Positions 1,785 to 55,649 of a stretch of DNA of 64,000 nt are shown here, in pieces (within the stretch, counting starts at the first letter, position 1; every line of letters begins with the position of its first letter). The stretch comes from Bacteroidota bacterium (lineage in GTDB: Bacteria > Bacteroidota > Bacteroidia > Palsa-965). Under the pieces are notes generated by a model. That model saw only the letters and a list, made by a program, of their open reading frames with translations, did not search any database and was not told where the DNA came from. The stretch covers positions 25,234 through 89,233 of the forward strand of contig VBWE01000037.1 of NCBI GenBank assembly GCA_006218065.1. The letters run 5' to 3'. A program made the position numbers and the translations under genes.

Positions 1785-4700
1785 ATGAAAACCCGTTTCA
1801 TTCCTCTCCTCCTGTTCTTCCTGTGCCTGAATTTTTCCGAAGCCCGGGCGCAATCGACGGCCTGGTCGAATACGTCTTCCGCGCTGGTGTATGTTTTCCG
1901 GCTCACGCCCGAACATGCTTTCGCACTGACCAATTCACCTTCTATGCTCGCCGATTCGGCTTATTGCGGGCAGCCGGTGGATTCATTCCCCGCCAGCCGG
2001 CATTACGGGCGCGTGCATGAACCCGGATACTATCTTTTTGTTTATGCCAGCGGGATGACCGTTTTCCAGAAAATGGTCTGCTATTCCAACATCGACATAC
2101 AGGTCATCGGAAACGGGCGCGACTTCGAACTGTCGATCACCGACCGGCGTACCGGCAAGTACATTACGAATGCCGAAATCTCCGCCGGAAAACAGGCCAT
2201 CGCCTTCGACCGGAAAACCGGTTCCTATCATGCGAAAAAACTTCCGAAACCTCACCGGCTCGTCATCCGCGCCGCAGGGGAAACGCTTTATTATACCGGC
2301 GAGAAAGAAAAGAACGGGAGCCGGAGAGGTTATCACAGCCATACCGGTGCGTATATAGCGTTCAACAAACCGAAATACCTGCCCGGCGACACGGTGAAAA
2401 TGAAAGCGCATTACCAGGACAAAGGAAAATTCTTCAACAAGGAAGCGGACCTGGTCATCGAACGCGAATGGGTTTACCGCGAAGCCGTCGATATTCCGCG
2501 GGGCGTGCTCAGCACCACGATTAAACCCGTGCGCCCCGGAGTTTTTACCTATGAGTTCGTACTCGGCGATTCGCTGCTGATCGACAAAAATTACGAGGTT
2601 ACGATTTACCAGAAAAAGAGAAAAAACAGGCGGAAACAGCTTTGCAACGGTTCGTTCCGGCTGGAAGATTACCAGCTCGACGATATGCGTATCCATGCGT
2701 ATTGCAACAAGGATAAATATTTCCCGCGTGATTCGGTGATCCTCTTTATCGATGCGAAAGACGCGAACAACCTGCCTGTTCCCGACGGTCGCGTAGTTGT
2801 AAAAATTACGCCGGACCAGGTGAAACACTTTGAGAAAAACGGAACCGTCATTCCCTTCGAAACATTCCAGGCCGCACAGCCGCTCAATCCCGACGGGCTC
2901 ACGCGCATCGCCATCGCACCCGGCGTTTTTGCTCCCGCTTCGGTTTCGTATAAAGCCGTCGTCGAAGTATTCAACAGCAACAACGAACTGCAGCGCGATT
3001 CCTGTTACATCCAGGTACTCCAGTCCGGCAGCGATTTCCGCTTCGATGAAAAAGCAGACAGCGTTATCGCCGTTTTCCTGGTCAACGGTATTTCAACCCC
3101 GGCAAAAGGACGTATATGGATGCAGGTTGAAGGCGATACCACGAACGGGCACGAAGTAACTTTCCCGTATGCATTCCGGCGTTCGGCAGCGGCTACCGGG
3201 TATTATTTTTTCTGCGGCGAAATTTCCGATTACCTCCCGCAAAAAGATATTTCACTTGATTTCAGGGGCAACCGGTCCGCCGATTCGGTTTTTGTATTTC
3301 TCGACAGCAAATACAAAATTCCTTTTCACTGTGAAATCTACCGCGGCGATAAACTCGTCCGGTCGCAGGATGCCGTTACGCTTTATTTCGCCGACAAGGA
3401 TCAGTCGGAAGAAGATTATAAAATACAGTACTCTTTTTATTACGGCGGCGAAAACAAGATGGAGATCAAAACGCTTCACGCCTTTTCGAAAACGCTGCGG
3501 GTAACGCTGGAAGAACCTCCGCAGGTTTATCCCGGGCAGAAAGCGGAAATCGCGGTTAAAGTACAGGACTACAAAGGGACGCCGGTACCCGATGCCGATA
3601 TCACCGCAGTTGCCGTAAATGCCCAGTTCAAAGAAGATCCGTTCCAGGTATACGTTGATTTTAATCCGCAACCTTCGCTGAAAAAAAAGCAGATCATCAA
3701 ATACGAGCTCACCGGCGACGGTTTTTCCGCCAACCGTAAGCCCGACCTGTTCTGGTATCGCCGCCTGCACCTCGATACGATTCACCAGTACAGGTATTAC
3801 GTTCCCGGCAGCAGCATTTACAAGAAACAAATCGCGCTCAGTGCGAAAGATGCTCCGCAGTTTTCGGTTTTACTTTCCTCGAATACCGGCGTGGCGAGTA
3901 TCGCGCTGCTTTACCTCGATGACCAGTTGGTTTTCGCGAACGTCGGCAAGCTGGGGAAAAATTATCATGCCGATGATTCTCCCTTTTCTTTTCACGCTTC
4001 GCCGGGCATGCACCGGGTACGCATCCGCACGAAAGACGCCGAGTACACGCTCGACAGCGTGGAAATCCTCGCCGGGCATAAACTGGAATTGTCATTCGAC
4101 CACACGGGCATTCCCGCAGGCGTGAAAAAAGAAATACGCACGCCGAAACTTACCGGTGCTGAGAAAAAAACACTGCAGGAACATTTGCTCTTCACCGAAT
4201 CGAGGTACGGGCGCAACATACACCTGCAGCAGGACTCCAATATCCGGTATTGCAGCGGGTACGGCCGGTACACGGTAGTTGACCATCCGGAAAAACCGTT
4301 TACCGTATATATGACCCGTTCGCGCGAAGTGCAGCAGGTTAATTTCACACTACTCAAAGGAGTGCAAAATTTCCTGAAAACGGATTCGCTTTACCTCGCT
4401 GCAGGAAAAATAAAATTCGGCAAACTGAAAAAAATCGGGGACAATTATAATCCCGGGCAGCTGGCTTTGCGCAAAAGCGCATTACCGAATATGAAAAGCG
4501 TGCCGGGTTACAGCTACACCGGCATCTCGCTCCCGGGCAGGACATACCTCACTTCCAAAGGAAATGCCCGGCTGATGGTAACGGCGGAGCACGACAGCCT
4601 GAAAAACAGGATCAAGGGATACATCCTGCAAAACGTGAACGGGCGTGTGCTGGAAACGCATTTCAACGAAGAACGTTATTCCTGGTCATACAATAATGAA

Positions 4701-7700
4701 ACGGTTGCTTATTTCATGGATGATCTTCAGCCGGGCGAGTATAAGATTACTTTTTTCACAACCGATGGCCGGTATAAAATCGTAAAACTTGTCGCGCATT
4801 CCGCCGTAACTACGTGTTACAAACTCGACGCCGGCGGATTTGTTTCGCCCGCTTCGCTGCAGCAGCCTTCCAGCAGCGCCGGCTTTGATCTGCGTTACAG
4901 CAATACCGGGAACAGCATCAAAGGAAAAATCGATTATACCGGGAAAAGTTCTTCGGGTTCCGCAGCCGGTTTTACCATCACCATCGGGACTTCGCGTTCA
5001 CGTTATAGTTCAATCGTCACCGGCACTGACGGGCAGTTCGAATTCGAGAACCTGCCACCGGGAATTTACAACCTGTATACCGGGGAGAAAAAATACGAAG
5101 GACGGACTACGATCATGGGCTTGGTCGTAACGGATGAAGCGTCACCCGTGATCACCATCCGCATGAGCGATTCGGCTGCCGTGAAAAGATACCAATTGGC
5201 CTGGGACAGCGCCAATCACGTGATCGAAGTGCATGAGGGATATAAACAACCCTATTCCGTTGTCGGGTATTCTCCGCTGCAAAAAAACAAATTCGAACTG
5301 CCGGCGCATTGGGTTTATCAGCCTGGCAGCGCATACAGCCGTATCGTTGATCGCATGAACAACAGTAACCCGGAAATCGAGTGGAACAATTCGTATGTTC
5401 GTTTTTACAGCGGTTTTCAACCGGAGTGGCCTTACATTTTCAGGCGAACCGGCAATTTCACCAAACAGGTTTACCGGAAAATTTTTCATATCAAGCCGAA
5501 GAAGAGAAAATTCCGTACCATATCCTGCCCCAGTTTCGGTGGTGGCCGTGAACGGTCATCTGTAACCGGGTGGGATTATAACGGCGCTGAAGATGGCGGA
5601 TTTGAAATCGGTGGAAACACACAGTTGCACGAAATACAAATTGTTACCGGCGGAACTCCTGCATTATTTAATATGATTCCCGGTGTCATGAATACCCGGG
5701 GAGGTAAACGCATGCTGCGGATGGAAGACGGAATCGACTCCTATTATGCCGCCGACTCGCTCTCCTTTGATAATGGACTGCCGCCACCTCCGCCGCCCGA
5801 GCCGCTTCCGAACGGCGTCCGCAGCAAGTTCAGCGATTACGCGTACTGGCAGCCGGTGCTTTTCACGGATGAAAAAGGAGTAGCGCGTTTCACTGTAACT
5901 TACCCGGACAACCTCACCGGCTGGCGCAGTTATGCCATAGCCATGGGTTCGGAACTCAGCGGGTCCGACCGCAATTTCACACGTTCGTTCAAACCGGTGG
6001 CCGCCACACTTTCGTTTCCGCGTTTCCTGGTGGAAGGCGATCAATCCGAAATCGTGGGCAAGGTGATTAACTATACGGACAAACCGATTGATGTAAGCAC
6101 GGTATTCACTGTTGAAGACAGGCCTTTGCCGGCAAAAACAGTTTCCGTTAAAGACGCATCTATCGAACGCGAAAAAATCACCGCTCCCGCAGCCGCAGGA
6201 AATGATTCGCTGCAGGTAGAATTCAAACTCACCGCGAAAGAAGGATACATTGACGGGGAAAAGCGTTTCATTCCTGTTTTCCGCAAAGGCGTGGAAGAAG
6301 CGAACGGGCAGTTCTGGCTTCTCGAAGGCGACACTTCATTTACTGTAAAGGTAAATGCTGCGGCCGACCATATCCAGGTGAATGCTTTCGATAATGAGCT
6401 CGACCTGCTGCTGAACAGGATACAGGAAATTAAATCGTACGAATACGACTGCAACGAACAGCTCGCTTCGAAACTGCGCGCTTTGCTGATGGAGAAAAAA
6501 ATATTCGCCGCCACGGGCCGCAGTTTTAAAGGCGAAAACGATATCCGTAAAATCCTGAAGCGCCTCGACAAAAACCAGCACAGCGACGGAAGCTGGGGCT
6601 GGTGGAAAAACTCGGCGGCAAATCCCGCGATGACGCTCATCGTGCTGGAAGCTTTACTGGATGCGCAGGAGCAGCAATATGTCACGAATGCGGATGAAGG
6701 AATTATGTACGTGTATTACCATTATGGCCAGTGGCCGGTGCATCAGATGGTTCACGCATTATACGTTTTGTCGCGCAGCGGAAAAAGACAGGTCGAGTAT
6801 CAAAAAGTCGTGGAAGAGCTGGAGAAAAGCGATAACCTGCTGAGCGCATATTCCCGCTTCCAGCTTATCCGCATCCGGCAGATGAACAGGCTGGAAACTT
6901 CTTCCAGGATGGCATCCGTGATGAATATGAAAAAATCAACCGTGCTCGGCGGGGCATACTGGGGCGAACACGGCACGGAATGGTATGACAACAGCACGCA
7001 GCTTACTCTGCTTGCTTACCGGATATTCCAGAACGACTCCACGAAAAAGAACGAACTGAAAGCCATCCGCAGCTATTTCCTCGAACCGAATAATTCGAAC
7101 GCATTCCGGAACACGTATGAAAGCGCGGAAATTATCAATACCGTACTTCCCGCCTATCTTTCGGAATACAGCAAAGGCGGACTGAAAAGTCCCACGCTGG
7201 CGCTGAGCGGTGCGGTTTCAGCTGCTCCGCAGAAACTGCCGCTGACCAGAAAATACAAACCGGCTTCAGGAACGCTGGAAGTAAAAAAAACAGGTGCATC
7301 TCCATTGTACCTCACTGTTTTCGAACGGAAATGGAATACCAACCCCGCACCGAAAGAAGATCTCTTCGTGGTAAAAACGGCTTTCATGAGCAACGGCGAA
7401 ACGGTGGATACGCTCGAGGCCGGGAAACCGCTCGTACTGAAAGTAGAAGTGGAAGCGAAGAAAAAAGGCAATTACGTGATGATCGAAGTACCGATCCCGG
7501 CCGGCTGTTCGTACGACGTGAGTAAAAATGCGCCGCCGGTATTCGAAAGTCACCGCGAGCAGTTCAAAAACAAAACCAGTATTTTTTGCGAAAGCCTGCC
7601 CGAAGGGAAGCATACGTTCTACATCCCGCTCCAGCCGCGCTATTCCGGCACATATACGCTGAATGCGGCAAAAGCGGAGATGATGTATTTCCCGGTTTTC

Positions 7701-7739
7701 TACGGCAGGTGCGGGCAGAAAAAAACGATCATAAAATAA
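1785..7739 (+). CDS. Alpha-2-macroglobulin family protein, thioester type
   Basis: A 1984-residue protein with signal peptide (residues 1-23, ending in ARAQ). MG2-like domain starts near YLPGDTVKMKAHY (~residue 190). Residues ~1045-1125 look like a carboxypeptidase-regulatory beta-sandwich (DGQFEFENLPPGIYNL). Next come a segment resembling a TonB plug (QIVTGGTPALF), a proline run (~1331-1340), and the A2M core domain starting near AYWQPVLFTDEKG (~1352). CNEQ at Cys1556 fits the CxEQ internal thioester, followed by an alpha-toroid domain (GSWGWWKN, ~1602). Known bacterial family members trap proteases in the cell envelope. Thioester function is inferred from the motif alone. No penicillin-binding protein neighbour is present, unlike many proteobacterial A2M operons. 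Confidence 0.9.
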   Translation: MKTRFIPLLLFFLCLNFSEARAQSTAWSNTSSALVYVFRLTPEHAFALTNSPSMLADSAYCGQPVDSFPASRHYGRVHEPGYYLFVYASGMTVFQKMVCYSNIDIQVIGNGRDFELSITDRRTGKYITNAEISAGKQAIAFDRKTGSYHAKKLPKPHRLVIRAAGETLYYTGEKEKNGSRRGYHSHTGAYIAFNKPKYLPGDTVKMKAHYQDKGKFFNKEADLVIEREWVYREAVDIPRGVLSTTIKPVRPGVFTYEFVLGDSLLIDKNYEVTIYQKKRKNRRKQLCNGSFRLEDYQLDDMRIHAYCNKDKYFPRDSVILFIDAKDANNLPVPDGRVVVKITPDQVKHFEKNGTVIPFETFQAAQPLNPDGLTRIAIAPGVFAPASVSYKAVVEVFNSNNELQRDSCYIQVLQSGSDFRFDEKADSVIAVFLVNGISTPAKGRIWMQVEGDTTNGHEVTFPYAFRRSAAATGYYFFCGEISDYLPQKDISLDFRGNRSADSVFVFLDSKYKIPFHCEIYRGDKLVRSQDAVTLYFADKDQSEEDYKIQYSFYYGGENKMEIKTLHAFSKTLRVTLEEPPQVYPGQKAEIAVKVQDYKGTPVPDADITAVAVNAQFKEDPFQVYVDFNPQPSLKKKQIIKYELTGDGFSANRKPDLFWYRRLHLDTIHQYRYYVPGSSIYKKQIALSAKDAPQFSVLLSSNTGVASIALLYLDDQLVFANVGKLGKNYHADDSPFSFHASPGMHRVRIRTKDAEYTLDSVEILAGHKLELSFDHTGIPAGVKKEIRTPKLTGAEKKTLQEHLLFTESRYGRNIHLQQDSNIRYCSGYGRYTVVDHPEKPFTVYMTRSREVQQVNFTLLKGVQNFLKTDSLYLAAGKIKFGKLKKIGDNYNPGQLALRKSALPNMKSVPGYSYTGISLPGRTYLTSKGNARLMVTAEHDSLKNRIKGYILQNVNGRVLETHFNEERYSWSYNNETVAYFMDDLQPGEYKITFFTTDGRYKIVKLVAHSAVTTCYKLDAGGFVSPASLQQPSSSAGFDLRYSNTGNSIKGKIDYTGKSSSGSAAGFTITIGTSRSRYSSIVTGTDGQFEFENLPPGIYNLYTGEKKYEGRTTIMGLVVTDEASPVITIRMSDSAAVKRYQLAWDSANHVIEVHEGYKQPYSVVGYSPLQKNKFELPAHWVYQPGSAYSRIVDRMNNSNPEIEWNNSYVRFYSGFQPEWPYIFRRTGNFTKQVYRKIFHIKPKKRKFRTISCPSFGGGRERSSVTGWDYNGAEDGGFEIGGNTQLHEIQIVTGGTPALFNMIPGVMNTRGGKRMLRMEDGIDSYYAADSLSFDNGLPPPPPPEPLPNGVRSKFSDYAYWQPVLFTDEKGVARFTVTYPDNLTGWRSYAIAMGSELSGSDRNFTRSFKPVAATLSFPRFLVEGDQSEIVGKVINYTDKPIDVSTVFTVEDRPLPAKTVSVKDASIEREKITAPAAAGNDSLQVEFKLTAKEGYIDGEKRFIPVFRKGVEEANGQFWLLEGDTSFTVKVNAAADHIQVNAFDNELDLLLNRIQEIKSYEYDCNEQLASKLRALLMEKKIFAATGRSFKGENDIRKILKRLDKNQHSDGSWGWWKNSAANPAMTLIVLEALLDAQEQQYVTNADEGIMYVYYHYGQWPVHQMVHALYVLSRSGKRQVEYQKVVEELEKSDNLLSAYSRFQLIRIRQMNRLETSSRMASVMNMKKSTVLGGAYWGEHGTEWYDNSTQLTLLAYRIFQNDSTKKNELKAIRSYFLEPNNSNAFRNTYESAEIINTVLPAYLSEYSKGGLKSPTLALSGAVSAAPQKLPLTRKYKPASGTLEVKKTGASPLYLTVFERKWNTNPAPKEDLFVVKTAFMSNGETVDTLEAGKPLVLKVEVEAKKKGNYVMIEVPIPAGCSYDVSKNAPPVFESHREQFKNKTSIFCESLPEGKHTFYIPLQPRYSGTYTLNAAKAEMMYFPVFYGRCGQKKTIIK

Positions 7740-8468: not shown

Positions 8469-9677
8469 TTACTTGAAATCCGGGTAAAGCAGGTAACGTG
8501 TACGGATCTCCCTGAACTTTTCGAGACCGGGTTGCCAGCTTTTACGAACCTGGTCCTCTGTTTTTCCGTCGATGATCTGCTGTTTCAGTTCAGCCGTTCC
8601 GGCAAGCGAGAAGAAATAATTATTGAAGAATTTTTCTTTGTCCGGGAAATCCTCGTAACAGCCCTGCAGCCAGAAGAGATACAGTTTCCGGTGCGAACGC
8701 ATGTAGTTTTCCGCAAAGCTCCGCAGATCATGCCCGTGGCAGAGCGAATCTTTATACGGCGGATTTTTACTTGCGCCCGGGATACTGTGCGGGGTGAAAT
8801 CGAAAGAGGTATTTTTGAGATTCGGATGACCGATGACCTGGAACGGATACTCTGTTCCGCGCCCGACACTGATGGCAGTACCTTCGAAAAGACAAACCGA
8901 AGGATACAGGTAAACAGCCGCCATGTTCGGCAGGTTCGGGGAAGGTTTTACCGGAAGCTGGTACAAATCGTTGTGCGTATATCCTTCGCAGGTTACGTAT
9001 TTGATGTTGCAGCGAACGCCGTTTTTCAGCCAGCCTTCACCGCTGACCATGCGCGCGTATTCGGCTACGGTCATGCCGTGAACAACCGGAACAGGATGCA
9101 TGCCGACAAACGATTTGTATTTGTCTTCCAGCACCGGCCCGTCAACGTAATACCCGTTCGGATTCGGACGATCAAGCACGACAAAAGTTTTATTCAGTTC
9201 GGCGCAGGCTTCCATCACGTAAGTCATCGTGCTGATGTACGTAAAAAAACGCACGCCCACGTCCTGTACGTCGAATACCACCACGTCGATTCCTTCGAGA
9301 TCTTTCGGCGTGGGTTTTTTATGATTTCCGTAAAGCGAGATAACCGGCAGCCCTGTTTTTTTGTCCTTGCCCGACTGGATACTTTCTCCCGCATCGCCGT
9401 CGCCGCGGAAACCGTGCTCGGGTGAAAATATTTTTTTGACTTTGACTTTGAGTGCGAGCAGCGTATCCACCAGGTGCGTTTTATCCACCAGCGAAGTGTG
9501 ATTCGCCACCACGGCCACCCGCTTATCTTTCAGCCAGGGCAGGTAAACGTTGAACTGTTTTGCGCCTACGCGTATCGAACTGTCGTTTTTAATGGTCATG
9601 CCCGAAACCAGCCTTGCTTTTTGTGCGAAGAGCTGGGACGCGCAGAGAAGGAAAACGATAAACAGTTTATTTTTCAC
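8469..9677 (-). CDS. DUF1343 / NamZ-like exo-beta-N-acetylmuramidase
   Basis: 402 residues if started at the GTG at 9677, which begins a clean signal peptide (KNKLFIVFLLCASQLFAQ). An ATG 66 bp upstream (9743) would add a non-signal tail. Diagnostic motifs are DVVVFDVQDVGVRFFTYIST, VVLDRPNPNGYYVDGP and VPVVHGMTVAEYA. The family member YbbC/NamZ of Bacillus subtilis removes terminal MurNAc from peptidoglycan fragments; the same role, in cell-wall recycling at the envelope, is inferred. It is monocistronic: convergent with 7911-8462 and divergent from the FtsX-type gene. Confidence 0.88.
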   Translation of the reverse strand: MKNKLFIVFLLCASQLFAQKARLVSGMTIKNDSSIRVGAKQFNVYLPWLKDKRVAVVANHTSLVDKTHLVDTLLALKVKVKKIFSPEHGFRGDGDAGESIQSGKDKKTGLPVISLYGNHKKPTPKDLEGIDVVVFDVQDVGVRFFTYISTMTYVMEACAELNKTFVVLDRPNPNGYYVDGPVLEDKYKSFVGMHPVPVVHGMTVAEYARMVSGEGWLKNGVRCNIKYVTCEGYTHNDLYQLPVKPSPNLPNMAAVYLYPSVCLFEGTAISVGRGTEYPFQVIGHPNLKNTSFDFTPHSIPGASKNPPYKDSLCHGHDLRSFAENYMRSHRKLYLFWLQGCYEDFPDKEKFFNNYFFSLAGTAELKQQIIDGKTEDQVRKSWQPGLEKFREIRTRYLLYPDFK

Positions 9678-26028: not shown

Positions 26029-26062
26029 GATTGCTTCTCCGCCAAAAGGCGGATCGCAATGA
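26029..26062. repeat. Small inverted repeat upstream of kdsB
   Basis: GATTGCTTCTCCGCC (26029-26043) pairs with GGCGGATCGCAATGA (26048-26062), with one mismatch region and an AAAA loop. It lies 50 bp after the SBBP stop and could be its terminator, though no T-run follows. Confidence 0.55.
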
Positions 26063-26122
26063 CTGACCCAAAGCTATTTCCGCTGCAAGCATTCCATTAT
26101 CTTCGCAGGAAATACTTTTCGC

Positions 26123-26854
26123 ATGAACATCCTCGGCATTATTCCCGCGCGTTACGCATCTACCCGTTTTCCAGGCAAGCCGCTGGTGGATATCGCCGGT
26201 AAAACGATGATCCGCCGCGTATACGAGCAGGCTTCGAAATCCGCTTTACTGAAACAGGTTTACGCAGCTACCGACGATGCACGCATCGAAGCGGAAGTGA
26301 AATCGTTCGGCGGGAATGTAATCATGACTTCGGCGGATCACCGGAGCGGGACCGATCGCTGTGCGGAGTCCGTACAAAAAATTGCCGGCGACTGGGACGT
26401 GGTGATCAATATCCAGGGCGATGAACCTTTTATTCACCCGGAGCAGATCGATCTGCTTTGCTCGCTTTTTCAATCGGCGGAAACCCAGATCGGCACGCTG
26501 GTGAAAAAAGCGCACCGGGACGACGAAGTTTTTAATCCGAATACGATTAAGGTGACCGTGGATAAAAACGGCTACGGTTTATATTTCAGCCGCTCCCCGA
26601 TTCCGTTCCTGCGCAATTTTCCGCAGGAACAGTGGCTGGCGAATCATACTTTCCTGAAACATATCGGCATTTACGGGTATCGTAAAGAGATTCTTTTAAA
26701 GCTGACGCAGTTGCCGGAAGGAAATTTGGAGAAAGCGGAATCGCTGGAACAGCTACGCTGGCTGGAAAACGGGTACAGGATACGCACGGCGTTTACGGAA
26801 CTGGAATCGGTTTCGGTGGATAGTCCGGAGGATTTGGGGAGGTTGCCGGGGTAA
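26123..26854 (+). CDS. kdsB: CMP-KDO synthetase (3-deoxy-manno-octulosonate cytidylyltransferase)
   Basis: 243 residues, normal for the family. It activates KDO with CTP for lipid A-core assembly in the cytoplasm. Signatures: IIPARYASTRFPGKPL (nucleotide binding), MTSADHRSGTDRCAE, VVINIQGDEPFI and FSRSPIPFLRN. The sequence TACTTTTCG just upstream is a one-mismatch -7 element 5 nt from the ATG, suggesting a very short leader. Its stop codon is the first part of a 65-bp terminator-like repeat. Confidence 0.94.
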   Translation: MNILGIIPARYASTRFPGKPLVDIAGKTMIRRVYEQASKSALLKQVYAATDDARIEAEVKSFGGNVIMTSADHRSGTDRCAESVQKIAGDWDVVINIQGDEPFIHPEQIDLLCSLFQSAETQIGTLVKKAHRDDEVFNPNTIKVTVDKNGYGLYFSRSPIPFLRNFPQEQWLANHTFLKHIGIYGYRKEILLKLTQLPEGNLEKAESLEQLRWLENGYRIRTAFTELESVSVDSPEDLGRLPG

Positions 26855-26917
26855 AGCCTCACCTCTCTCCTCTCCTAAGGAGAGGATGGCGGTTCGGGCA
26901 CTAGCTGACGTTTTTTT
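26853..26917 (+). terminator. Terminator-like 65-bp repeat, copy 1
   Basis: Begins at the kdsB stop codon. It contains the hairpin CCTCTCC/GGAGAGG, then GATGGCGGTTCGG, TAGCTGACG and a run of eight T. The copy at 28163-28228 matches at most positions. Confidence 0.7.
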
Positions 26918-27082
26918 TGAGTAGTCCTATACAGTTCGGCAGGCTTCGCCTGGCCTTCTGGCTTTAATTTTCTCGCGATTTTCTTCATTAAACAGCCTAA
27001 CCTCCTCACTTCAAACCTGTTAATATCCCGGTATAAAATTACCCGGTTTTGGCGTTTCGTTTTCCTTATTTTTACGGGATAA

Positions 27083-28162
27083 ATGGAACTGAACACGGCT
27101 ATTGATCACTTGGTGAGCGAGCTGCTTTTCCGGCACGATTGTGTGATTGTGCCCGGGCTTGGCGGCTTTGTGGGCAATTATGCGCCCGCACGCATCCACC
27201 CGGTGAGCAATACGTTTTCGCCGCCTTCCAAGCAGCTGGTTTTTAACCGCAACCTGTCGCATAACGACGGGCTGCTGGCGCAGGAACTGGTTACGGCTTC
27301 CGGCATTTCGTTCGATGAAGCCATCGCGCAGATCAACGCCTTTGCAGACGAATGCAACCGCGAGCTGAAAAGCGGGCATAAAGTGCAGTTGCAGAATATC
27401 GGCATGCTTTATTTCGATGCGGAGAAAAAACTCCAGTTCGAGCCGGATACCACGGTCAATTATTCCATCGACGCGTTCGGACTTTCGGCATTCCAGTCGA
27501 TGCCCGTCAGGCGTGAAAAACCCGCCGAGAAACGCGAACTGGTTACCGAAGACCGCCACGAACGCCCGGCCCGCGATCCGAAAAAGATCCGCAACCGCCG
27601 CCGCCTGGTCGCTTCCGCCATCGCCCTGCCCATTTTACTCGCGGCGCTGTGGATTCCCTTACGTACTGATTTCATCAAAACCGGCAACCTGGCCGACCTG
27701 AATCCTTTCGGCTCGGGAACGCCTTCGCTGTATGCGCATAAAACGGTTTCGTTCAATACAACCGATTCCAGTACGGTGATCATCGGCGCCGACAAATTCA
27801 CAGCCGACAGTGCGGGCTTAGCCAGCATCACGCTTACCGACCAGGGTTTCCCGATCGTAGTGCAGGTAGCTGAACCGGAAAGCACGCGCGTGGATAACGG
27901 CAAAGCGAGCCGGCATAAAAAACACCACACTTCCGCAGGCATGTATTACGTGATCGGCGGTTGTTTCAGCGTGCCGGCCAATGCCGATAATTTCCTGCGC
28001 AAGCTCGAAGAAGCGGGATATTCCGCCGAACTGCTCGTCAATCCGAAAAAGAGCAACCTGCTGCACGTGAGCTACGGAAGTTCACTGAGCATGGCGGAAG
28101 CCGAAACGCTGCTCGCCAAGGTGAAAGCGGAAAACGGTGCGGCGTGGATTTTGCGTAAGTAG
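27083..28162 (+). CDS. HU-CCDC81 and SPOR domain protein
   Basis: 359 residues. The N-terminal ~130 residues are the paired HU-like CCDC81 domains seen in Bacteroidota (DCVIVPGLGGFVGNYAPA, FNRNLSHNDGLLAQELV, VQLQNIGMLYFD). A single membrane helix follows (~174-194; LVASAIALPILLAALWIPL), then a linker and a C-terminal SPOR domain (~285-359; MYYVIGGCFSVPANADNFL), which binds septal denuded peptidoglycan. The HU part would face the cytoplasm and may contact DNA, so the protein could link chromosome and division site; this is inference. A lone gene, followed directly by the second terminator-like repeat. Confidence 0.85.
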   Translation: MELNTAIDHLVSELLFRHDCVIVPGLGGFVGNYAPARIHPVSNTFSPPSKQLVFNRNLSHNDGLLAQELVTASGISFDEAIAQINAFADECNRELKSGHKVQLQNIGMLYFDAEKKLQFEPDTTVNYSIDAFGLSAFQSMPVRREKPAEKRELVTEDRHERPARDPKKIRNRRRLVASAIALPILLAALWIPLRTDFIKTGNLADLNPFGSGTPSLYAHKTVSFNTTDSSTVIIGADKFTADSAGLASITLTDQGFPIVVQVAEPESTRVDNGKASRHKKHHTSAGMYYVIGGCFSVPANADNFLRKLEEAGYSAELLVNPKKSNLLHVSYGSSLSMAEAETLLAKVKAENGAAWILRK

Positions 28163-28228
28163 AAGGCCTCACCTCTTTCCTCTCCCAGGGAGAGGATGGT
28201 GGTTCGGATTTAGCTGACGTTTCTTTCC
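28163..28228 (+). terminator. Terminator-like 65-bp repeat, copy 2
   Basis: Begins immediately after the stop of the SPOR gene and matches 26853-26917, including CCTCTCCC/GGGAGAGG, GATGGTGGTTCGG, TAGCTGACG and the T-rich end. Confidence 0.7.
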
Positions 28229-28400
28229 GATTTTTCTCAGCGACTCTTTTTACGGGATTTTTTCGGCGACTCTTCCAGGATTTACGATGCTTTTCTGCAG
28301 CACTTTTTCAGCGATTCTTACGGGATTTATGATTCTTTTCTGCACACTTTTCCGGCGGCAATTCCGGATTTTTTCAGCGATACTTTTTTGCAGCAATTTT
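28229..28400. repeat. Degenerate tandem repeat, low-complexity
   Basis: About six imperfect units beginning TTTTTCAGCGA or TTTTTCGGCGA, several followed by TCTT..GGGATTTA.GATTC and TTTTCTGCA. The best pair starts at ~28259 and ~28306. No ORF or known element fits; it fills the gap between the SPOR gene and the convergent response regulator. Confidence 0.6.
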
Positions 28401-28802
28401 TCAGGAAGCGTTTTCCAGCCACTCTTCCACGCGCTGGATCAGCAATTCGATGCGGACGGGTTTGTTGATAAAACCGTCGGCCTGCAGTTTTATACCGAGC
28501 GTTTGCACATACGATTGATGCAAGGCGGAGAGAAAAATAATCGGCGTATTGGCGAACAAGGGATTCTGGCGGAGTTTCTGGCAGGTTTCGTAACCGTTCA
28601 TCACCGGCATCAGGATGTCGAGGATAATCAGGTCGGGCTTGTTTTCCACGGCGAGGTTATACCCGGCCTGCCCGTCGCCGGCGGTGTGAACCGTGTAGCC
28701 TTTCCGGATAAGATTATAACCGATGAATTCGCGGATATCCGGTTCATCATCAACGATCAGCACCTTGCGTTTTTCGCTGATCATGGCATGCAGTTTCGAC
28801 AT
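28401..28802 (-). CDS. Single-domain response regulator
   Basis: 133 residues, receiver domain only. Acidic pair D18/D19 (VLIVDDEPDIREF), phospho-acceptor Asp62 (DLIILDILMP), Ser in IIFLSALH and the conserved Lys in FINKPV are all present. No output domain, so it acts by protein contact, like CheY or Spo0F. No histidine kinase is adjacent. The gene is alone on its strand between convergent and same-strand neighbours. Confidence 0.92.
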   Translation of the reverse strand: MSKLHAMISEKRKVLIVDDEPDIREFIGYNLIRKGYTVHTAGDGQAGYNLAVENKPDLIILDILMPVMNGYETCQKLRQNPLFANTPIIFLSALHQSYVQTLGIKLQADGFINKPVRIELLIQRVEEWLENAS

Positions 28803-28869
28803 GCGGCAAAACTACCGGCCTGCGATTAAGCGGGTACTATTGATTTGTTACCGTATAATGATGAATCCG

Positions 28870-29493
28870 TTAGGGATTGTTTGCCGGCGGCACGGGAGGA
28901 ACCGGCGGCGGCGGTGGATCGGGCTGCGGCGCGGAAGGATCGGGACTGATGACCGGTGGTTCCTGTTTTTCACGCTGGCGGCGGTAAATGATGATACCCA
29001 TGAGAATTGCAGCGCCCAGAAAGATCATGCCGAGCAAGGCCCAGACCCAGCCCGAATTCTGTTTCGGGATGACGAGAAAGATAATGCCGATGAGGAACAC
29101 CGTAGCGATTTCATTCCAGAGGCGGAGCCGGAACGAAGTCCATTTCAGCGTATCCTTCTGCGCCTGCATGAAAAACACGTGCGTCTGCAGATGATACAGT
29201 GTAAGTCCGCAAACAAAACAGAATTTCAGGATGAACCAGGCTTCGGTAAAAAAATATCCGAGCCGGTCAAACATCAGCCACAATCCGAAAATCCAGGTAA
29301 GGATCATCGCCGGCCAGCTGATGAAATACCACAACCGGCGCTGCATGATTTTGAACTGCGCGGCGAGGATGCTGCGGTTCGGCTCCACTTTATCGAGCGC
29401 TTCCACATAATAAATGAGCAGGCGCGGCATATAAAACAAAGCCGCAAACCAGGCTACCATAAAAATGACGTGCAGGGCTTTTATATAGAGCAT
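28870..29493 (-). CDS. hemJ: Protoporphyrinogen IX oxidase HemJ
   Basis: 207 residues with four or five membrane helices. The opening YIKALHVIFMVAWFAALFY and the stretch QFKIMQRRLWYFISWPAMI are the HemJ (UPF0093) signature. His8 and Lys90 match the His and Lys positions reported as essential in characterised HemJ proteins. It oxidises protoporphyrinogen to protoporphyrin in haem synthesis at the inner membrane. The C-terminal ~30 residues are a proline-rich extension (PDPPPPPVPPVPPANNP) beyond the usual length, probably a disordered tail. No other haem gene adjoins. Confidence 0.87.
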   Translation of the reverse strand: MLYIKALHVIFMVAWFAALFYMPRLLIYYVEALDKVEPNRSILAAQFKIMQRRLWYFISWPAMILTWIFGLWLMFDRLGYFFTEAWFILKFCFVCGLTLYHLQTHVFFMQAQKDTLKWTSFRLRLWNEIATVFLIGIIFLVIPKQNSGWVWALLGMIFLGAAILMGIIIYRRQREKQEPPVISPDPSAPQPDPPPPPVPPVPPANNP

Positions 29494-29521
29494 GAAACAA
29501 ATTTACAAAAAGAATACCGCC

Positions 29522-29529
29522 TATCTTTG
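29522..29529 (+). promoter_or_regulatory. -7 promoter element of the thioesterase gene
   Basis: TATCTTTG matches TAnnTTTG, 20 nt before the ATG at 29550, in the divergent gap with hemJ. Confidence 0.5.
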
Positions 29530-29549
29530 CCCGGTCAATACCTGCTTTT

Positions 29550-30065
29550 ATGAAACCGAGAAAAGCCAAAGATTCGCTGGCTGTGGCCACACACCATGTG
29601 CTTCCGAACGACACGAACAACCTGAACAATCTTTTCGGCGGAAGGCTGCTGGAATGGATGGATGTGATTGCGGCCATCTCGGCTCACCGGCATTGCCGCC
29701 GCGTGGTGGTTACCGCTACGGTGAACAACGTTTCTTTTGCCCAGGCTATCCGTTACGGCAGCATCGTTACGCTGGAATCGAAAGTTTCGCGGGCGTTTTC
29801 CACGTCCATGGAAGTGTTCATCGACGTGTACGTGGAAGATCCGATTACCGGCGAAAAACAAAAATCAAACGAGGCTATTTATACGTTTGTGGCTGTCGAC
29901 CAGAACGGACAACCGCTGCCTGTTCCCCAGCTTATCCCGGAAACGGAAGAAGAACAAACCCGTTACGCCGGCGCACTCCGCCGCAAACAATTAGCCCTGA
30001 TACTCGCCGGGAAAATGAAACCGGAAGAGGCTACGGAACTGAAAGCGTTGTTTTTGGGTAAGTAA
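29550..30065 (+). CDS. Acyl-CoA thioesterase, hotdog fold (YciA/BACH type)
   Basis: 171 residues. The hotdog signature NNLNNLFGGRLLEWMDVIAA includes the catalytic Asn/Asp region; VTATVNNVSFAQAIRYGSIV and SNEAIYTFVAVD complete the domain (~10-130), followed by a helical tail. It hydrolyses acyl-CoA to free acid and CoA in the cytoplasm; chain preference cannot be read from the sequence. Confidence 0.9.
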   Translation: MKPRKAKDSLAVATHHVLPNDTNNLNNLFGGRLLEWMDVIAAISAHRHCRRVVVTATVNNVSFAQAIRYGSIVTLESKVSRAFSTSMEVFIDVYVEDPITGEKQKSNEAIYTFVAVDQNGQPLPVPQLIPETEEEQTRYAGALRRKQLALILAGKMKPEEATELKALFLGK

Positions 30066-30124
30066 ATTCCTCAACGTTACTATTACAGCAATAGTTTTCT
30101 TTGCTTTCGGATCAGTTGCTTTTT

Positions 30125-30213
30125 CGATTTGAAAATGTAACGATTTGAAAATTGAGAAGATGCCCTGCGCGTGGATTTGCGGGCATTTTCAAATTGATGA
30201 ATTTTCAAATTGA
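30125..30213. repeat. Inverted pair of 16-nt direct repeats
   Basis: The left arm (30125-30154) has CGATTTGAAAAT twice, 16 nt apart. The right arm (30185-30213) has ATTTTCAAATTGAT twice, also 16 nt apart, complementary to the left. An inner GC hairpin ATGCCC/GGGCAT lies between. The right arm runs into the 3' end of the GT9 gene and supplies its stop codon. Confidence 0.75.
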
Positions 30214-31173
30214 TCCATTGAAAAACTCCGTTTCATCTATCTTCCGCATACAATCGAAATGACCTTTGGGACATTTTTCGTACCCGATTTTGGAACAGGG
30301 GCGGCAGGATAAATTTTTCACTTCGATAATCCGGGATCCTTCGCCGGGCAGGTAGGGATACATGCCGAAGGCGGGAACAGTGTTTCCCCAAACGGAATAA
30401 ATTTTCTTTTTAAAGGCGGCGGCAATGTGCATCAGGCCCGTGTCGGGAGTAATCACGAGATCGGACTGCCTGACGAGCGAGGCGGATTGATTGAGATTAT
30501 ACTTTCCGCAGGCATTATATACTTTGCTTCCGCAGGCGGCCGTGATACGCGCAGCGCGTGTTTCGTCTTCTTTTCCGCCGAGCAGAACTACGGGACTGTC
30601 CAGTTTCCGGATTACGGCAATTGCTTTTTCTTCCGGCATCTGCTTGGTGGCGAATTTGGCGCCTGCGACAAAAGCGATATACCCGTTGCGGTGAGTTTCC
30701 GGAAGCGATTGCAGATTTACTTCATCCTGCGCAGAAATAAAATAGTCGAGACCTTTGCCGTCGTTTTTCACGCCGAGTTTTTTCACCGCTTCAAAATAAC
30801 GGTCTACGATATGTACGGCGGGCATCCGGTTCACGTGCAGGTTGACGAGCAGCCACTTTTTTACATTCAGTTTCGGAAATGTCGCAGAAGGTTTGCGCAA
30901 AGCCAGTTTGACCTGCTGTGAGCGCGCATTGTGATGCAGATCGACTATGAAATCATAGTTCTCCGCTTTCATTTCCGCTTTGATCTCGGCAAAAACATCG
31001 GCGTAGGCATACACCCGTTTTACATGCGGATTATGCTCCAGGATGCCTTTGAAACCTGTACGGGTAACCACATGCAGTTCAGCGCCGAGCTGTTCGTGCA
31101 GGCAACGCAGTACCGGCGAAGTAAGTACGATATCGCCGATGGAACTGAAACGTATGACCAGGATTTTTTTCAA
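30205..31173 (-). CDS. Glycosyltransferase family 9 (heptosyltransferase-like)
   Basis: 322 residues. N-terminal ILVIRFSSIGDIVLTSPVLR and YDFIVDLHHNARS are GT9 signatures; the C-terminal domain has LVITPDTGLMHIAAAF and VWGNTVPAFGMYP. GT9 enzymes add heptose or related sugars from ADP-heptose to the LPS core at the inner membrane face. A cysteine pattern near the end (CRPCSKIGYEKCPKGHFDC) is common in Bacteroidota members. The last residues and stop are encoded within the intergenic repeat. Confidence 0.88.
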   Translation of the reverse strand: MKKILVIRFSSIGDIVLTSPVLRCLHEQLGAELHVVTRTGFKGILEHNPHVKRVYAYADVFAEIKAEMKAENYDFIVDLHHNARSQQVKLALRKPSATFPKLNVKKWLLVNLHVNRMPAVHIVDRYFEAVKKLGVKNDGKGLDYFISAQDEVNLQSLPETHRNGYIAFVAGAKFATKQMPEEKAIAVIRKLDSPVVLLGGKEDETRAARITAACGSKVYNACGKYNLNQSASLVRQSDLVITPDTGLMHIAAAFKKKIYSVWGNTVPAFGMYPYLPGEGSRIIEVKNLSCRPCSKIGYEKCPKGHFDCMRKIDETEFFNGSI

Positions 31174-31211
31174 GCCGGAACAAAAGTACGGATAGACAAT
31201 GATAAAAAAGA

Positions 31212-31245
31212 AAGAGCCGCTCTCCCGGATGGGAAAGCGGCTCTT
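31212..31245 (-). terminator. Intrinsic terminator of the lipoprotein gene
   Basis: A 10-bp stem AAGAGCCGCT/AGCGGCTCTT plus an inner CCC/GGG pairing, 17 bp after the stop at 31262 and followed on the minus strand by a T-rich run. Confidence 0.85.
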
Positions 31246-31261
31246 AAATGAAATGCGGAGA

Positions 31262-31864
31262 TTATTCCTGTGTCATAGTCCACTCACCCGAGTCGCTGCT
31301 TGTAGAGCTTCCCGAAGTAGCAGTACCTGCATACTTGAAGATCATCTCTTTGTTCTTCAGCTGGTAGATGTCCGCGATCATCGAGGGAGCATCCGAACCG
31401 GTGTATGTATCGGTAGTTGTAGTAGTAGAAGAACCGATAACCGTTACAGTTGATTCAGACAGGATAGTCATAACCATCTGCGATTTGTTCTTCATTTCAC
31501 CAACACCGCCTGTAAAATTCCAGGTACCGCTCTGGGTAATGGTTTCAGAGTAACCTGTAGAAGTAGTAACCTGTGTGAAAGTATAAGTACCTGCTTTTTC
31601 GAACACATAGTTCATGGTACGTGCTACAGTAACGCTGTTGCTTCCGGAAGTAGTGGTGTAGTTGGCACCGTCGTAAGTCCAGGTTGTAGTTGTAGAACCT
31701 GCAGTCGATGTTCCAGAACCGGCAGTTGTTTTCCATTCTCCTGCAACACGGGCTTTACGTGAACGGAAGGAAAGGGCGGGATCACCTTCGCCTTTTTTGC
31801 AGCTTTCGAGTGCAAGACTTCCAAGAATCAGGGTGGCAACAGTAACTTTTACTAAAGTTTTCAT
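31262..31864 (-). CDS. Lipocalin-like lipoprotein, unknown role
   Basis: 200 residues. The signal ends ALESC with Cys22 as the likely lipidation site. CKKGEGDPALSFRSRKARVAGEW is a Bacteroidota lipoprotein opening; the body is alternating beta strands rich in Thr and Ser with a central TWNFTGGVGEMKNKSQ, resembling lipocalin-like domains. A complete promoter lies upstream and a terminator downstream, so it is a single-gene unit. Ligand unknown. Confidence 0.8.
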   Translation of the reverse strand: MKTLVKVTVATLILGSLALESCKKGEGDPALSFRSRKARVAGEWKTTAGSGTSTAGSTTTTWTYDGANYTTTSGSNSVTVARTMNYVFEKAGTYTFTQVTTSTGYSETITQSGTWNFTGGVGEMKNKSQMVMTILSESTVTVIGSSTTTTTDTYTGSDAPSMIADIYQLKNKEMIFKYAGTATSGSSTSSDSGEWTMTQE

Positions 31865-43321: not shown

Positions 43322-45730
43322 TTATCGGATCACCAGTTTGCCGGTTCCGAGCTGGCCTGCTTCGTTCGTTACACGATAGAAATACACACCCGGAGCGAGA
43401 TCGCCTTTGCGGATGAGCATATTTTCGTTGTAACGTCCGGCCTGCGAAGAAATGAGCGCACCGCGAACGTCAAGCAGTTCGAACGTGTAAGCTCCCGACT
43501 GACCGGGGAAGCTAAGCGTAAAAATCGCAGCATCATCGAACGGGTTCGGGCTCAGGAGCATGCTCATGCCGCCGTTGTTCTGTTCGATGCCGATCACCTG
43601 TACGTTGATGGTATTGCAGGTTGTTGACGAATCACCGCAAAGGTTCCAGGTGGTGAGACAAACCGTGTACGGACCGGTGTTCGGGTACGTATGTGTCGGG
43701 TTGGCTGTTGTGGATGTGGTTGCATCGCCGAATGTCCAGAAATAGCTGACAGCATTGGCAGCCGAATTTGTGAACGTGTAGTTGAGTCCCGTTCCGCTGT
43801 TTGTAAATGCGGATGTGGGAAGCAGCGGGCAAACCGTAATGGTGTTGCAAAGCGTGTCGGACGAGCAGGCGTTGGAAGCAACGAGACAAACCGTATATGT
43901 TCCGTTCGACGTGTACGTATGCGACGGGTTTGCCGCAGTATCCGTGCTGCTGTCGCCGAAATCCCAGGCCCAGCTGGTGGCATTGGAAGAACCGTCGGTA
44001 AACTGTACCGTTCCGTTTCCTGCATCGAGGCTGGTGTAGCCGGCTGAAGCAGGGGCGCAAACAGAAACCGTATCGCAGATCGTATCCGCGGAACAGAAGC
44101 TGCTCGCGATCAGGCAAACGGTATATACGCCGCTGTTCACGTATGTATTCGAAGGATTCTGCAGGGTCGACGTATTGCTGTCACCGAAATCCCAGGTCCA
44201 GCTGGTAGCGTTCGAAGAACCATCGGTGAACTGGAACATTCCTCCACCCATCGCGCTGCTGGTATATGAAGCGGCAACCGGGATACAAACCGTGATCGTG
44301 GTGCAGATGGTATCAGCCGAACAGAAACTGCCGGCGACCAGGCAAACGGTATACGTTCCGCTCGCTGCATACGTATTAGCAGGATTCTGCAACGTTGATG
44401 TGTTGCTGTCGCCGAAATCCCAGAACCAGCTGGTGGCATTTGTTGTCGAGTCGTTAAACTGGACTGTTCCGCCGCCAAGCGAGGTGCTGGAATAGTTTGC
44501 GGCGACAGGAATACAAACAGTAACCGAATCACAAAGTGTATCGGCGGAACAAGCACTCGATGCAATGAGACAAACGTTATATACTCCGCTGCTGGCATAG
44601 GTGTACGTAGGCGAAGCCACCGAATCCACGCCGCCGTCGCCGAAAGTCCAGGCCCAGTTTGTCGTACTGGTCGATCCGTCGGTGAACATCACTGTTCCCC
44701 CGCCCTGCGGTGCGCTGGTGAAAACGGCTGCAGCCGGGATGCAAATCGTTACGGTCTGGCAAATGGTATCATTCACGGCGCAGGGATTTCCGACTACAAG
44801 GCAAACGGTATAGGTTCCGCTTGCGGTATATACGTGTGTCGGGTTCTGCGCGGTGGAAAAGTTTCCGTCGCCGAAATCCCACGACCAGGTGGCTGCGTTA
44901 TTCGTGCCGTCTGTGAAGCTGGCAGAATCGATATTCACTGCAGAAGTAAAACTCGCTACCGGGTCGGCGCCGCAGGCAACAACCGTTGTGCAAACCGTAT
45001 CCGTTCCGCAGGCATTGGTGATGTAGCTGCACACGTTATAAGTTCCGCCGAGCGTGTACGTATGTGACGGATTCCATGCCGTATCAAGCGGGGAACCGTC
45101 GCCGTAATCCCATACCGAAGTAAAGGAGGAATCCGAAGCATCCGAAAACTGGAACGAGTTCGGCCCGGTCGGCGTTGCTGTTACGTTATAAGTAATGAGC
45201 GAATCATAGTACAACCATACACGGCTGATGTTCGTACTCGTTGGTTCTGTCCAGAGCTGCTGGGGGGCGGTTGTAGGGAGCTGAAATTGCATCCCGAGAC
45301 GGGAAATCGCGACCGGGAATCCTTCTATCGTTGTTCCTCCCGTATTGTTGCCGTATGAATTGGCCGTTGCACGGCATCCCAATACACCGATAATATCGCC
45401 CTGCTCCACCTGGATATTGACCGGCAGGATACCGGAATTCGTATTGTTCTGGGTGAGAAAAAGCGTCGTAAATGCGTTTGTGGTCGTCGAAAAAGTCGGC
45501 GGCGTACTGTAAAATCTTACGATGGCGATGCTCTGGTTTCCCGAGCTGGCATCGGTCGGCACCTGTGCACCGGTAATCGTAAAACAAGAGGGCGCTACGA
45601 ACCAGTAGCCGCGTACGTTCCCGGTAAACGTGCTCGCATGCGGCGGCATGGCTACCTGGATCTGCGTTTGCGCCATAGCCGGAAGTAAAGTCACGGACAA
45701 GGCGAGTGAACTGAGTAGTTTTTTGATCAT
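43322..45730 (-). CDS. T9SS-secreted protein with seven cysteine-patterned PKD repeats
   Basis: 802 residues from ATG 45730, which begins a signal peptide (LLSSLALSVTLLPAMAQ). The N-terminal ~190 residues form a jelly-roll-like domain. Then seven PKD units of ~75 residues (WDFGDSNTSTLQNP core). In most units the end reads VCL....C..DT.C.T..VC, so four Cys recur per unit. The C-terminus is a type-A T9SS sorting domain (LLSPNPFDDAAIF, APGVYFYRV). The regular DNA periodicity of about 228 bp comes from these units. Likely an elongated, disulfide-stabilised surface protein; partner unknown. Confidence 0.88.
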   Translation of the reverse strand: MIKKLLSSLALSVTLLPAMAQTQIQVAMPPHASTFTGNVRGYWFVAPSCFTITGAQVPTDASSGNQSIAIVRFYSTPPTFSTTTNAFTTLFLTQNNTNSGILPVNIQVEQGDIIGVLGCRATANSYGNNTGGTTIEGFPVAISRLGMQFQLPTTAPQQLWTEPTSTNISRVWLYYDSLITYNVTATPTGPNSFQFSDASDSSFTSVWDYGDGSPLDTAWNPSHTYTLGGTYNVCSYITNACGTDTVCTTVVACGADPVASFTSAVNIDSASFTDGTNNAATWSWDFGDGNFSTAQNPTHVYTASGTYTVCLVVGNPCAVNDTICQTVTICIPAAAVFTSAPQGGGTVMFTDGSTSTTNWAWTFGDGGVDSVASPTYTYASSGVYNVCLIASSACSADTLCDSVTVCIPVAANYSSTSLGGGTVQFNDSTTNATSWFWDFGDSNTSTLQNPANTYAASGTYTVCLVAGSFCSADTICTTITVCIPVAASYTSSAMGGGMFQFTDGSSNATSWTWDFGDSNTSTLQNPSNTYVNSGVYTVCLIASSFCSADTICDTVSVCAPASAGYTSLDAGNGTVQFTDGSSNATSWAWDFGDSSTDTAANPSHTYTSNGTYTVCLVASNACSSDTLCNTITVCPLLPTSAFTNSGTGLNYTFTNSAANAVSYFWTFGDATTSTTANPTHTYPNTGPYTVCLTTWNLCGDSSTTCNTINVQVIGIEQNNGGMSMLLSPNPFDDAAIFTLSFPGQSGAYTFELLDVRGALISSQAGRYNENMLIRKGDLAPGVYFYRVTNEAGQLGTGKLVIR

Positions 45731-52175: not shown

Positions 52176-52588
52176 TCCAGCAATAAGGCAAATCCTTCCG
52201 GCTTTCCGCTGGTCCATGTTTTCATAAAACCGTTTTCATCCATCTTATAACATCCCACGGCCGGGTCGGCAATGTAAAAGAAGCGGCGGCCGGTTTTATA
52301 CAAAACCACGTAATGCTTTTCACTCCAGTGAAGGATGGCCGGCAAGGGGATGATTTTTTTATCCCGGAGCTGGGCGAGGCTGAGGCGGACGGGCATAACG
52401 TCGAATCCCATCTGCAAACCGGCCAATTCCATTCCGCGCAGGGAGGTTCCTTCCTGATCGGTACCTGCCCACGAAGAAATGGTTTTGAGACTATTTGTTT
52501 TTCCGTACCATTCACCGATCATCAGCAGGCAGCATGGACCACAATCCATTTTTTTCCGTTGACGATGGAAGGGAAATTGTTTTTTCAT
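52163..52588 (-). CDS. Stand-alone C39 (double-glycine) leader peptidase
   Basis: 141 residues, only the peptidase domain. Active site Gln10, Cys16 (KKMDCGPCCLLM), His92 (SEKHYVVLY) and Asp108 (IADPAVG) are all present. C39 domains cut RiPP leaders after Gly-Gly and are normally the N-terminal ~140 residues of a LanT/PCAT ABC exporter. Here the membrane and ATPase parts are absent, and the gene ends in a terminator. It overlaps lanB by 4 bp (ATGA). The target is very likely the precursor at 56942-57091, whose leader ends KGG. Export must use another transporter or the peptide is matured inside the cell. Confidence 0.85.
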   Translation of the reverse strand: MKKQFPFHRQRKKMDCGPCCLLMIGEWYGKTNSLKTISSWAGTDQEGTSLRGMELAGLQMGFDVMPVRLSLAQLRDKKIIPLPAILHWSEKHYVVLYKTGRRFFYIADPAVGCYKMDENGFMKTWTSGKPEGFALLLEPGT

Positions 52589-55641: not shown

Positions 55642-55649
55642 GGCTTGAT

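Follow-up and report, generated by a model that had tools for sequence, protein, structure and literature searches.

A 64,000-nucleotide stretch of the genome of a member of the Bacteroidota (positions 25,234 to 89,233 of contig VBWE01000037.1, assembly GCA_006218065.1; hereafter the window) encodes, at 1785 to 7739 on the forward strand, an alpha-2-macroglobulin (A2M) of 1,984 residues, in a frame that opens with ATG and runs without internal stop. Relatives of this protein carry, at the position of the A2M bait region, a module homologous to the N-terminus of SusC-type TonB receptors, comprising an NTE domain, a TonB box and a plug, and the window protein belongs to a clade, nested within this module-bearing family, in which the module is eroded. 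On our reading, which we hold to be rather probable, it is an exported A2M trap of the subfamily marked by the thioester motif C[NM]EQ, its bait having been captured early from the N-terminus of a TonB receptor and having then decayed in the clade of the window.

Domain layout and the bait position

The C-terminal part of the window protein is A2M both by Pfam and by fold, with no beta-barrel. Pfam places the A2M domain that follows the bait position (PF00207) at residues 1353 to 1438 (5841 to 6098; 57.7 bits against a cut-off of 21), and the C-terminal macroglobulin domain bMG10 (PF17973) at residues 1864 to 1970 (7374 to 7694; 47.9 bits against 26.2). Between them, residues 1537 to 1795 or thereabouts (6393 to 7169) match the thioester domain of complement C5 in fold (9y6c; Z 20.3, root-mean-square deviation (rmsd) 3.2, 253 residues aligned), and the CNEQ motif, which the first-pass annotation of the window had proposed with Cys1556 and which is indeed read at residues 1556 to 1559 (6450 to 6461), falls inside this region. 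Sequence matches in the PDB are A2Ms, E. coli YfhM among them, and, weakly, complement C5. At the other end, residues 1 to 23 (1785 to 1853), ending in ARAQ, appear by inspection to form a type I signal peptide. Calls of this kind were made throughout by inspection and a simple script; for the window protein inspection sees no lipobox and the script returns an undecided call.

Ahead of the A2M domain lies a CarboxypepD_reg-like domain equivalent to the NTE of SusC-type receptors (residues 1044 to 1129; 4914 to 5171), as supported by Pfam, a profile of the window clade and a structure model. The Pfam match itself spans residues 1059 to 1127 and, at 31.1 bits (E 3e-7), is slightly below the cut-off of 32.3; Plug is absent from the Pfam search of the protein. 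Both families had been proposed for this region, and the profile search recovers the carboxypeptidase-regulatory-like domain, near its cut-off, and not the plug. The domain is followed by some 210 residues predicted to be disordered (1131 to 1342; 5175 to 5810), and the QIVTGG piece and the PPPPPP linker that had been noted in front of the A2M domain are found at residue 1285 and at residues 1333 to 1338 (5781 to 5798), respectively, the A2M domain beginning at 1353.

In the structure model, which spans residues 790 to 1984, the NTE is folded with strands (predicted local distance difference test (pLDDT) mostly 65 to 89), and residues 1131 to 1342 are disordered, with pLDDT mostly 22 to 35 and below 50 across model residues 342 to 553. 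The model contains no extra macroglobulin domain, and residues 1040 to 1350, which the earlier reading allowed might fold as ordinary macroglobulin domains, consist instead of the NTE and disorder. Fold searches, whose list of matches excludes no family, covered the window model from about residue 555 onward and that of a relative, L064 (loci are cited by number), from about residue 547. The window model aligns with Salmonella A2M (4u48; Z 23.3, rmsd 4.6, 606 residues) and with human C4 (5jpn; Z 26.6, rmsd 4.4, 494 residues), and complement C3 and C5 align with it from residue 561 to 562 on. The match starts at residue 956 of Salmonella A2M, which corresponds to residue 561 of the window model (residue 1350 of the protein) and to residue 549 of the L064 model. 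The bait stretch of E. coli A2M, residues 923 to 942, is unresolved in the structure, according to the published report (PMC4498604). Since in both models the structural match starts directly behind the NTE-like domain and the stretch that follows it, these lie at the position of the bait region, and the structural alignment to bacterial A2Ms places them where the bait had been expected.

The receptor module in relatives

Searching 59 genomes, the window's own included, with the whole protein gave matches in 34, and a scan of a genome collection (84,980 species) with a single peptide pattern that includes C[NM]EQ gave 464 relatives. The best 80 of these, representing 78 loci, were used; read by title, they are all Bacteroidota. 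The constancy of C[NM]EQ in the scanned loci (L060 to L137) is by selection, since the pattern contained it, and the motif is also present in the eight closest relatives from the whole-protein search (L002 to L004 and L031 to L035). The C-terminal half is strongly matched in at least 9 of 395 genomes sampled across the phylum (again including the window's own), a lower bound in that up to three candidates were scored per genome; the "order" sample, of 12 genomes only, yielded no new close relatives.

Module segments were obtained from 76 of the 78 loci, L118 and L132 being dropped as too short, and from the window (n = 77). At E ≤ 0.01 the segment at the bait position matches CarbopepD_reg_2 (PF13715) in 75 of these, CarboxypepD_reg in 72 and Plug in 62, and the SusC/RagA model TIGR04056 matches in 72. 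Their consensus is that of a SusC N-terminus, the NTE leading to LxEVVVVGYG and then to the plug, which ends in xYGxRAANGVIxIxTK and is followed by the RxNFSDYAxWQP of the A2M. Compared with a SusC homolog (5t3r_D), the module of L081 gave an E of 3e-35, and a model built from 20 SusC N-termini only scored up to 207 bits on the A2M relatives, with nearly its full length aligned. The closest relatives diverge most right before the A2M domain, and there L031 and L032 read as the N-terminus of a TonB receptor, with Plug at 38.2 bits in L032, against a cut-off of 23.9, and slightly below it in L031 (23.1). The first-pass annotation had suggested a fusion with remnants of such an N-terminus, for which the window alone is only suggestive; the suggestion is borne out by the relatives, which have the complete module at this very position, in frames that run through without a break.

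A further 21 A2Ms considered from this class of Bacteroidota (L036 to L058 without L051 and L052) share the A2M domain, and in 19 of them the SusC-type module is lacking, the SusC-only model giving nothing above 5 bits. The exceptions are L037, with 70 bits over the plug half, and L054, with 6.7 bits. The motif in this set is mostly C[AST]EQ, with CGEQ in L056, CFEQ in L054 and no CxEQ in L038 and L041.

The intact module is represented by the model of L064, a relative from Mucilaginibacter, in which mean pLDDT by block is 82 to 90 in the NTE, 26 to 38 in the segment holding the box, which is disordered, and 66 to 72 in the plug half, the last linker being disordered as well. The alignment used for this model held 74 of 75 usable loci (without L117), and that for the window model held 49 of these together with the window.

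A number of loci are unusual in arrangement. By eye, the bait segments of L094 and L129 contain two tandem units resembling NTE and TonB box, the second abutting the A2M without a plug, and the NTE is doubled in L093 too. Near L092, L110 and L117 the flanks contain another A2M frame that also bears a SusC-type module, these being tandem paralogues, and in three Rufibacter loci (L080, L089 and L106) the 8-kb flanks include a frame with a SusC-type N-terminus. In genome G001 the A2M of L004/L052 has its 3' end in another frame (26043 to 31298 and 31285 to 31656 of the contig) and is broken or mis-assembled.

Probable origin and erosion of the module

A tree of the A2Ms was built by a quick method from the C-terminal part of stop-to-stop frames, with the module excluded (102 rows). 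The C[NM]EQ subfamily forms a group of 84 rows including the window (SH-aLRT 99), and relatives share 27 to 45% identity with the window protein in the C-terminal half. By the SusC-only model and a lenient rule (at least 35 model columns past the box), 70 of the 84 have a plug, 10 have the NTE only and 4 have neither; a stricter rule of at least 60 columns leaves 65 with a plug. The window falls with L002, L003, L004 and L034 in a clade of five rows (support 100), and the model finds a plug in none of the five.

A second tree, of the modules themselves (121 rows, also by a quick method, with over half its inner branches open), puts 24 SusC modules on one side of a branch (support 88), 4 of these rows being flank frames labelled SusC by match and length, and 61 A2M modules in a neighboring group (86). 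The simplest history would be that the module was captured long ago and later eroded in the window clade. Repeated renewal of the module through recombination with the SusC genes of the genome was also considered and is not favored, since the SusC modules group together, apart from the 61 A2M modules.

For the window protein itself, what remains of the module was assessed by profile and by pairwise comparison. When a profile of the four-member window clade was compared by hhalign with a profile of the other relatives, from which the window, L060 and L061 had been left out, the NTE was found at the matching place (probability 74, E 2.8e-5) and the plug was not; the window alone gave nothing convincing in this comparison, and the SusC-only model has no match in it. 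A pattern search of the protein found no TonB-box motif. On the other hand, residues 1131 to 1342 are collinear with the plug of L189, a TonB receptor of the same genome, with a Smith-Waterman score of 60, which was equalled in 5 of 10,000 shuffles and reached by none of 696 control pieces of 200 residues (best 52); given that L189 is the best among 33 targets, the corrected chance is nearer 2%. For two other receptors of the genome, L156 and L168, none of 400 shuffles each was as good, and among the plugs of six A2M relatives L137 alone scored (6 of 400 shuffles as good). Of 27 receptors of the genome, 17 align across the QIVTGG piece, and in 11 of these 17 (L189 and ten others) QIVTGG falls, by eye, on the C-terminal motif of the plug; the alignment with L189 puts a probable plug relic at residues 1265 to 1306 (5577 to 5702). 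With a position-weight model of the plug C-terminus, made from 3 sequences only, 362 of 5,000 shuffles were as good as the window. The genome (G000) has 22 Plug matches and three A2M-domain matches over cut-off, and nowhere in it does SusC/RagA exceed the family cut-off.

Because the plug is largely eroded and the TonB box is gone, we regard the window protein as a relic of the module, and the comparisons suggest that it has kept the NTE, lost the TonB box and preserved of the plug at most a faint trace. The plug-like piece of the first-pass annotation accordingly survives as a weak pairwise likeness to L189 and fails as a profile match.

By analogy with characterized bacterial A2Ms, the window protein is most likely a periplasmic thioester protease trap with a receptor-derived bait. 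Early in the subfamily, the bait stretch would have been replaced by a captured TonB-receptor N-terminus with its NTE, TonB box and plug, and in the window clade the decay of plug and TonB box would have left the NTE and about 210 flexible residues acting as bait. A protease cutting in this flexible segment would unleash the chain, upon which the thioester domain would swing out and the CNEQ thioester would capture the protease covalently. In E. coli A2M, cutting of the bait frees the chain from its tether and leaves the thioester exposed, as described in the report cited above (PMC4498604).

A number of points weigh against this reading. Cleavage, conformational change, capture and periplasmic location are all inferred from the A2Ms of E. 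coli and Salmonella; a bait role for the window segment is suggested by its position only, and the disorder predicted for residues 1131 to 1342 may be owed in part to the few homologues there. The plug relic around residues 1265 to 1306 is weak and only probable, being near the detection limit and missed by profiles. The plugs of L031 and L063 give no significant alignment with the window segment (83 and 345 of 400 shuffles as good), nor do those of L033, L062 and L134 (more than 20 of 400 each), and 6 of the 10 best control pieces likewise align through the QIVTGG stretch. That the subfamily gained the module at its base is suggested by a quick tree with long branches, on which the plug state changes 8 times, and such counts cannot separate gain from loss. 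On the module tree the A2M label changes 5 times, and the Saprospiraceae-type modules, together with L031, L086 and L112, branch outside the SusC-like group, so that more than one capture is possible.

The TonB box and alternative readings

A TonB-box motif stands no more than 330 residues from the A2M domain in 57 of the 84 family members; shuffling would give 0.14, and 168 control pieces have none. Counted by column in 77 of 80 A2M modules (L002, L003 and L054, with long or odd rows, being dropped), a strict TonB box is found in 49, a looser one in 11 and none in 17, and several of the TonB-box columns rank among the more conserved of the module. Eight members have the motif with a plug that is short, missing or not SusC-like (fewer than 60 aligned plug columns), and in six of these (L062, L094, L108, L113, L122 and L134) it stands at most 100 residues from the A2M domain. 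The string matches the TonB box of the SusC receptor Bt1763 (VDEVVV), deletion or alanine replacement of which impaired growth on levan, according to the published account (PMC7782687).

A tentative possibility is that the module of the intact relatives works as a docking device, its TonB box being presented by the NTE and bound by the C-terminal domain of TonB. An unlipidated A2M would then be tethered at Ton complexes, beneath the receptor pores by which foreign proteases might enter, and the window clade would have become uncoupled. The frequency of the motif, its retention in members with a poor plug or none (L094, L113 and L134, for example), its identity with a box needed for normal growth on levan and its place in a disordered stretch of the L064 model all agree with docking. 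So do the signal peptides, which the simple script calls as being without lipobox in 50 of 75 cases and undecided in 18, and even the 7 flagged relatives show on inspection, farther along, an AQ or GQ site resembling that of type I signal peptides. However, the pattern misses the motif in 27 of the 84 members, 16 of them with a plug and several off by one residue, the motif state changes 17 times on the A2M tree, the window protein itself has no such motif, and the conservation of the box could reflect a bait site or plain inheritance with the module. Nor did a conserved operon partner emerge from the neighborhood, no Pfam family occurring in more than 3 of 129 neighboring proteins among the 25 of 230 families listed (24 loci, up to 3 proteins per side of at most 1,100 residues, called with a simple frame caller). 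The broader proposal, in which a Bacteroidota-wide branch of A2Ms is Ton-coupled, with TonB binding the box and either parking the trap at energized receptors or pulling the plug to arm or expose the bait, we consider doubtful; were it true, the window lineage would have lost the coupling and kept the trap.

A different use of the same module, which we regard as unlikely, is bait by mimicry: the module would copy the receptors' hinge of NTE, TonB box and plug, and proteases that attack receptors would spring the trap. The flexible segment at the bait position fits this proposal, as does the co-occurrence of SusC-like modules with SusC, the modules being found in 20 of 24 SusC-bearing genomes and in none of 5 without SusC (Fisher p 0.001, 29 genomes), at a 40-bit cut-off picked afterwards and with 5 more SusC-bearing genomes left out; the SusC-lacking set (5 of 34 genomes) was read from best E-values, some of the genomes are incomplete, and L095 was left out of the SusC search. 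The correlation is nevertheless tied to ancestry, and because the supported branches yield just 2 independent pairs, at most one of them with a difference in the module, we do not take the co-occurrence as proof; moreover, L003 (G007) and L004 (G001) are eroded despite SusC in their genomes. In the intact relatives the module may serve as a TonB docking device or as a receptor-like bait, and the data do not decide between the two.

Less likely again is that the NTE-like domain of the window protein is a generic prealbumin-like insert, with no TonB-receptor ancestry and a likeness to the plug that is due to chance. This would suit the CarboxypepD_reg match below its cut-off, the absence of Plug by profile, the silence of the SusC-only model and the control pieces that share the QIVTGG stretch, but it sits poorly with the collinear match to L189 and with relatives at 27 to 45% identity, several of which bear undoubted modules at the identical position. 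An assembly artefact or chimera, for which nothing speaks beyond the metagenomic origin of many relatives, can practically be dismissed, the same architecture recurring in continuous frames in independent genomes that include isolates of Mucilaginibacter, Pedobacter and Chitinophaga.

Comparison with known systems

Among known proteins, close counterparts are the A2Ms of E. coli (ECAM/YfhM) and Salmonella (SaA2M), which have the A2M domain, the CxEQ motif, the thioester domain and the C-terminal macroglobulin domain in common with the window protein. Those A2Ms are anchored in the inner membrane and have a disordered bait, as the same report describes (PMC4498604), whereas in the window protein no lipobox is seen, an NTE domain is added and the flexible segment is much longer. 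In SusC/RagA receptors (Bt1763, RagA) the NTE is followed by the TonB box and then the plug, just as in the relatives of the window protein; they differ in the beta-barrel, which the A2Ms are missing, and the window protein in addition is without a TonB box and has an eroded plug. Complement C3, C4 and C5 likewise accommodate an additional domain, the anaphylatoxin domain, where the second half of the protein is about to begin; that inserted domain is unrelated.

Neighboring genes

Just upstream of the A2M gene, 182 to 1618 on the forward strand encodes a beta-propeller (SBBP) protein that ends in a C-terminal signal for type IX secretion, and the second gene downstream (8469 to 9599, reverse strand) is that of a NamZ exo-beta-N-acetylmuramidase. 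Farther along, also on the reverse strand, are genes for a PKD-repeat protein (43322 to 45730) and an Omp28-like protein (45891 to 46919; Omp28 below cut-off), each of which again has a C-terminal signal for type IX secretion, and for a LanC-like cyclase (55650 to 56843; PF05147, 147 bits). The gene adjoining the last encodes a protein of 1,045 residues that by eye resembles a LanB-type lantibiotic dehydratase, and 52585 to 56843 on the reverse strand is a possible lanthipeptide cluster.

Implications

Much work has gone into A2Ms and into TonB receptors, and to our knowledge no link between them is known; we found no description in the open-licence literature of an A2M with a plug, TonB or CarboxypepD_reg, and domain databases may well list the combination. 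The presence of a receptor N-terminus in a trap, with the box often kept, in some members even where the plug is short or absent, suggests either a TonB-docked defense protein or a bait that copies the receptor. The NTE domain of SusC, the function of which is given as unknown in the published account (PMC7782687), occurs here without a barrel, and its setting in these proteins bears on that domain. More broadly, the module hints that two systems of the periplasm are connected in a way that had not been expected.

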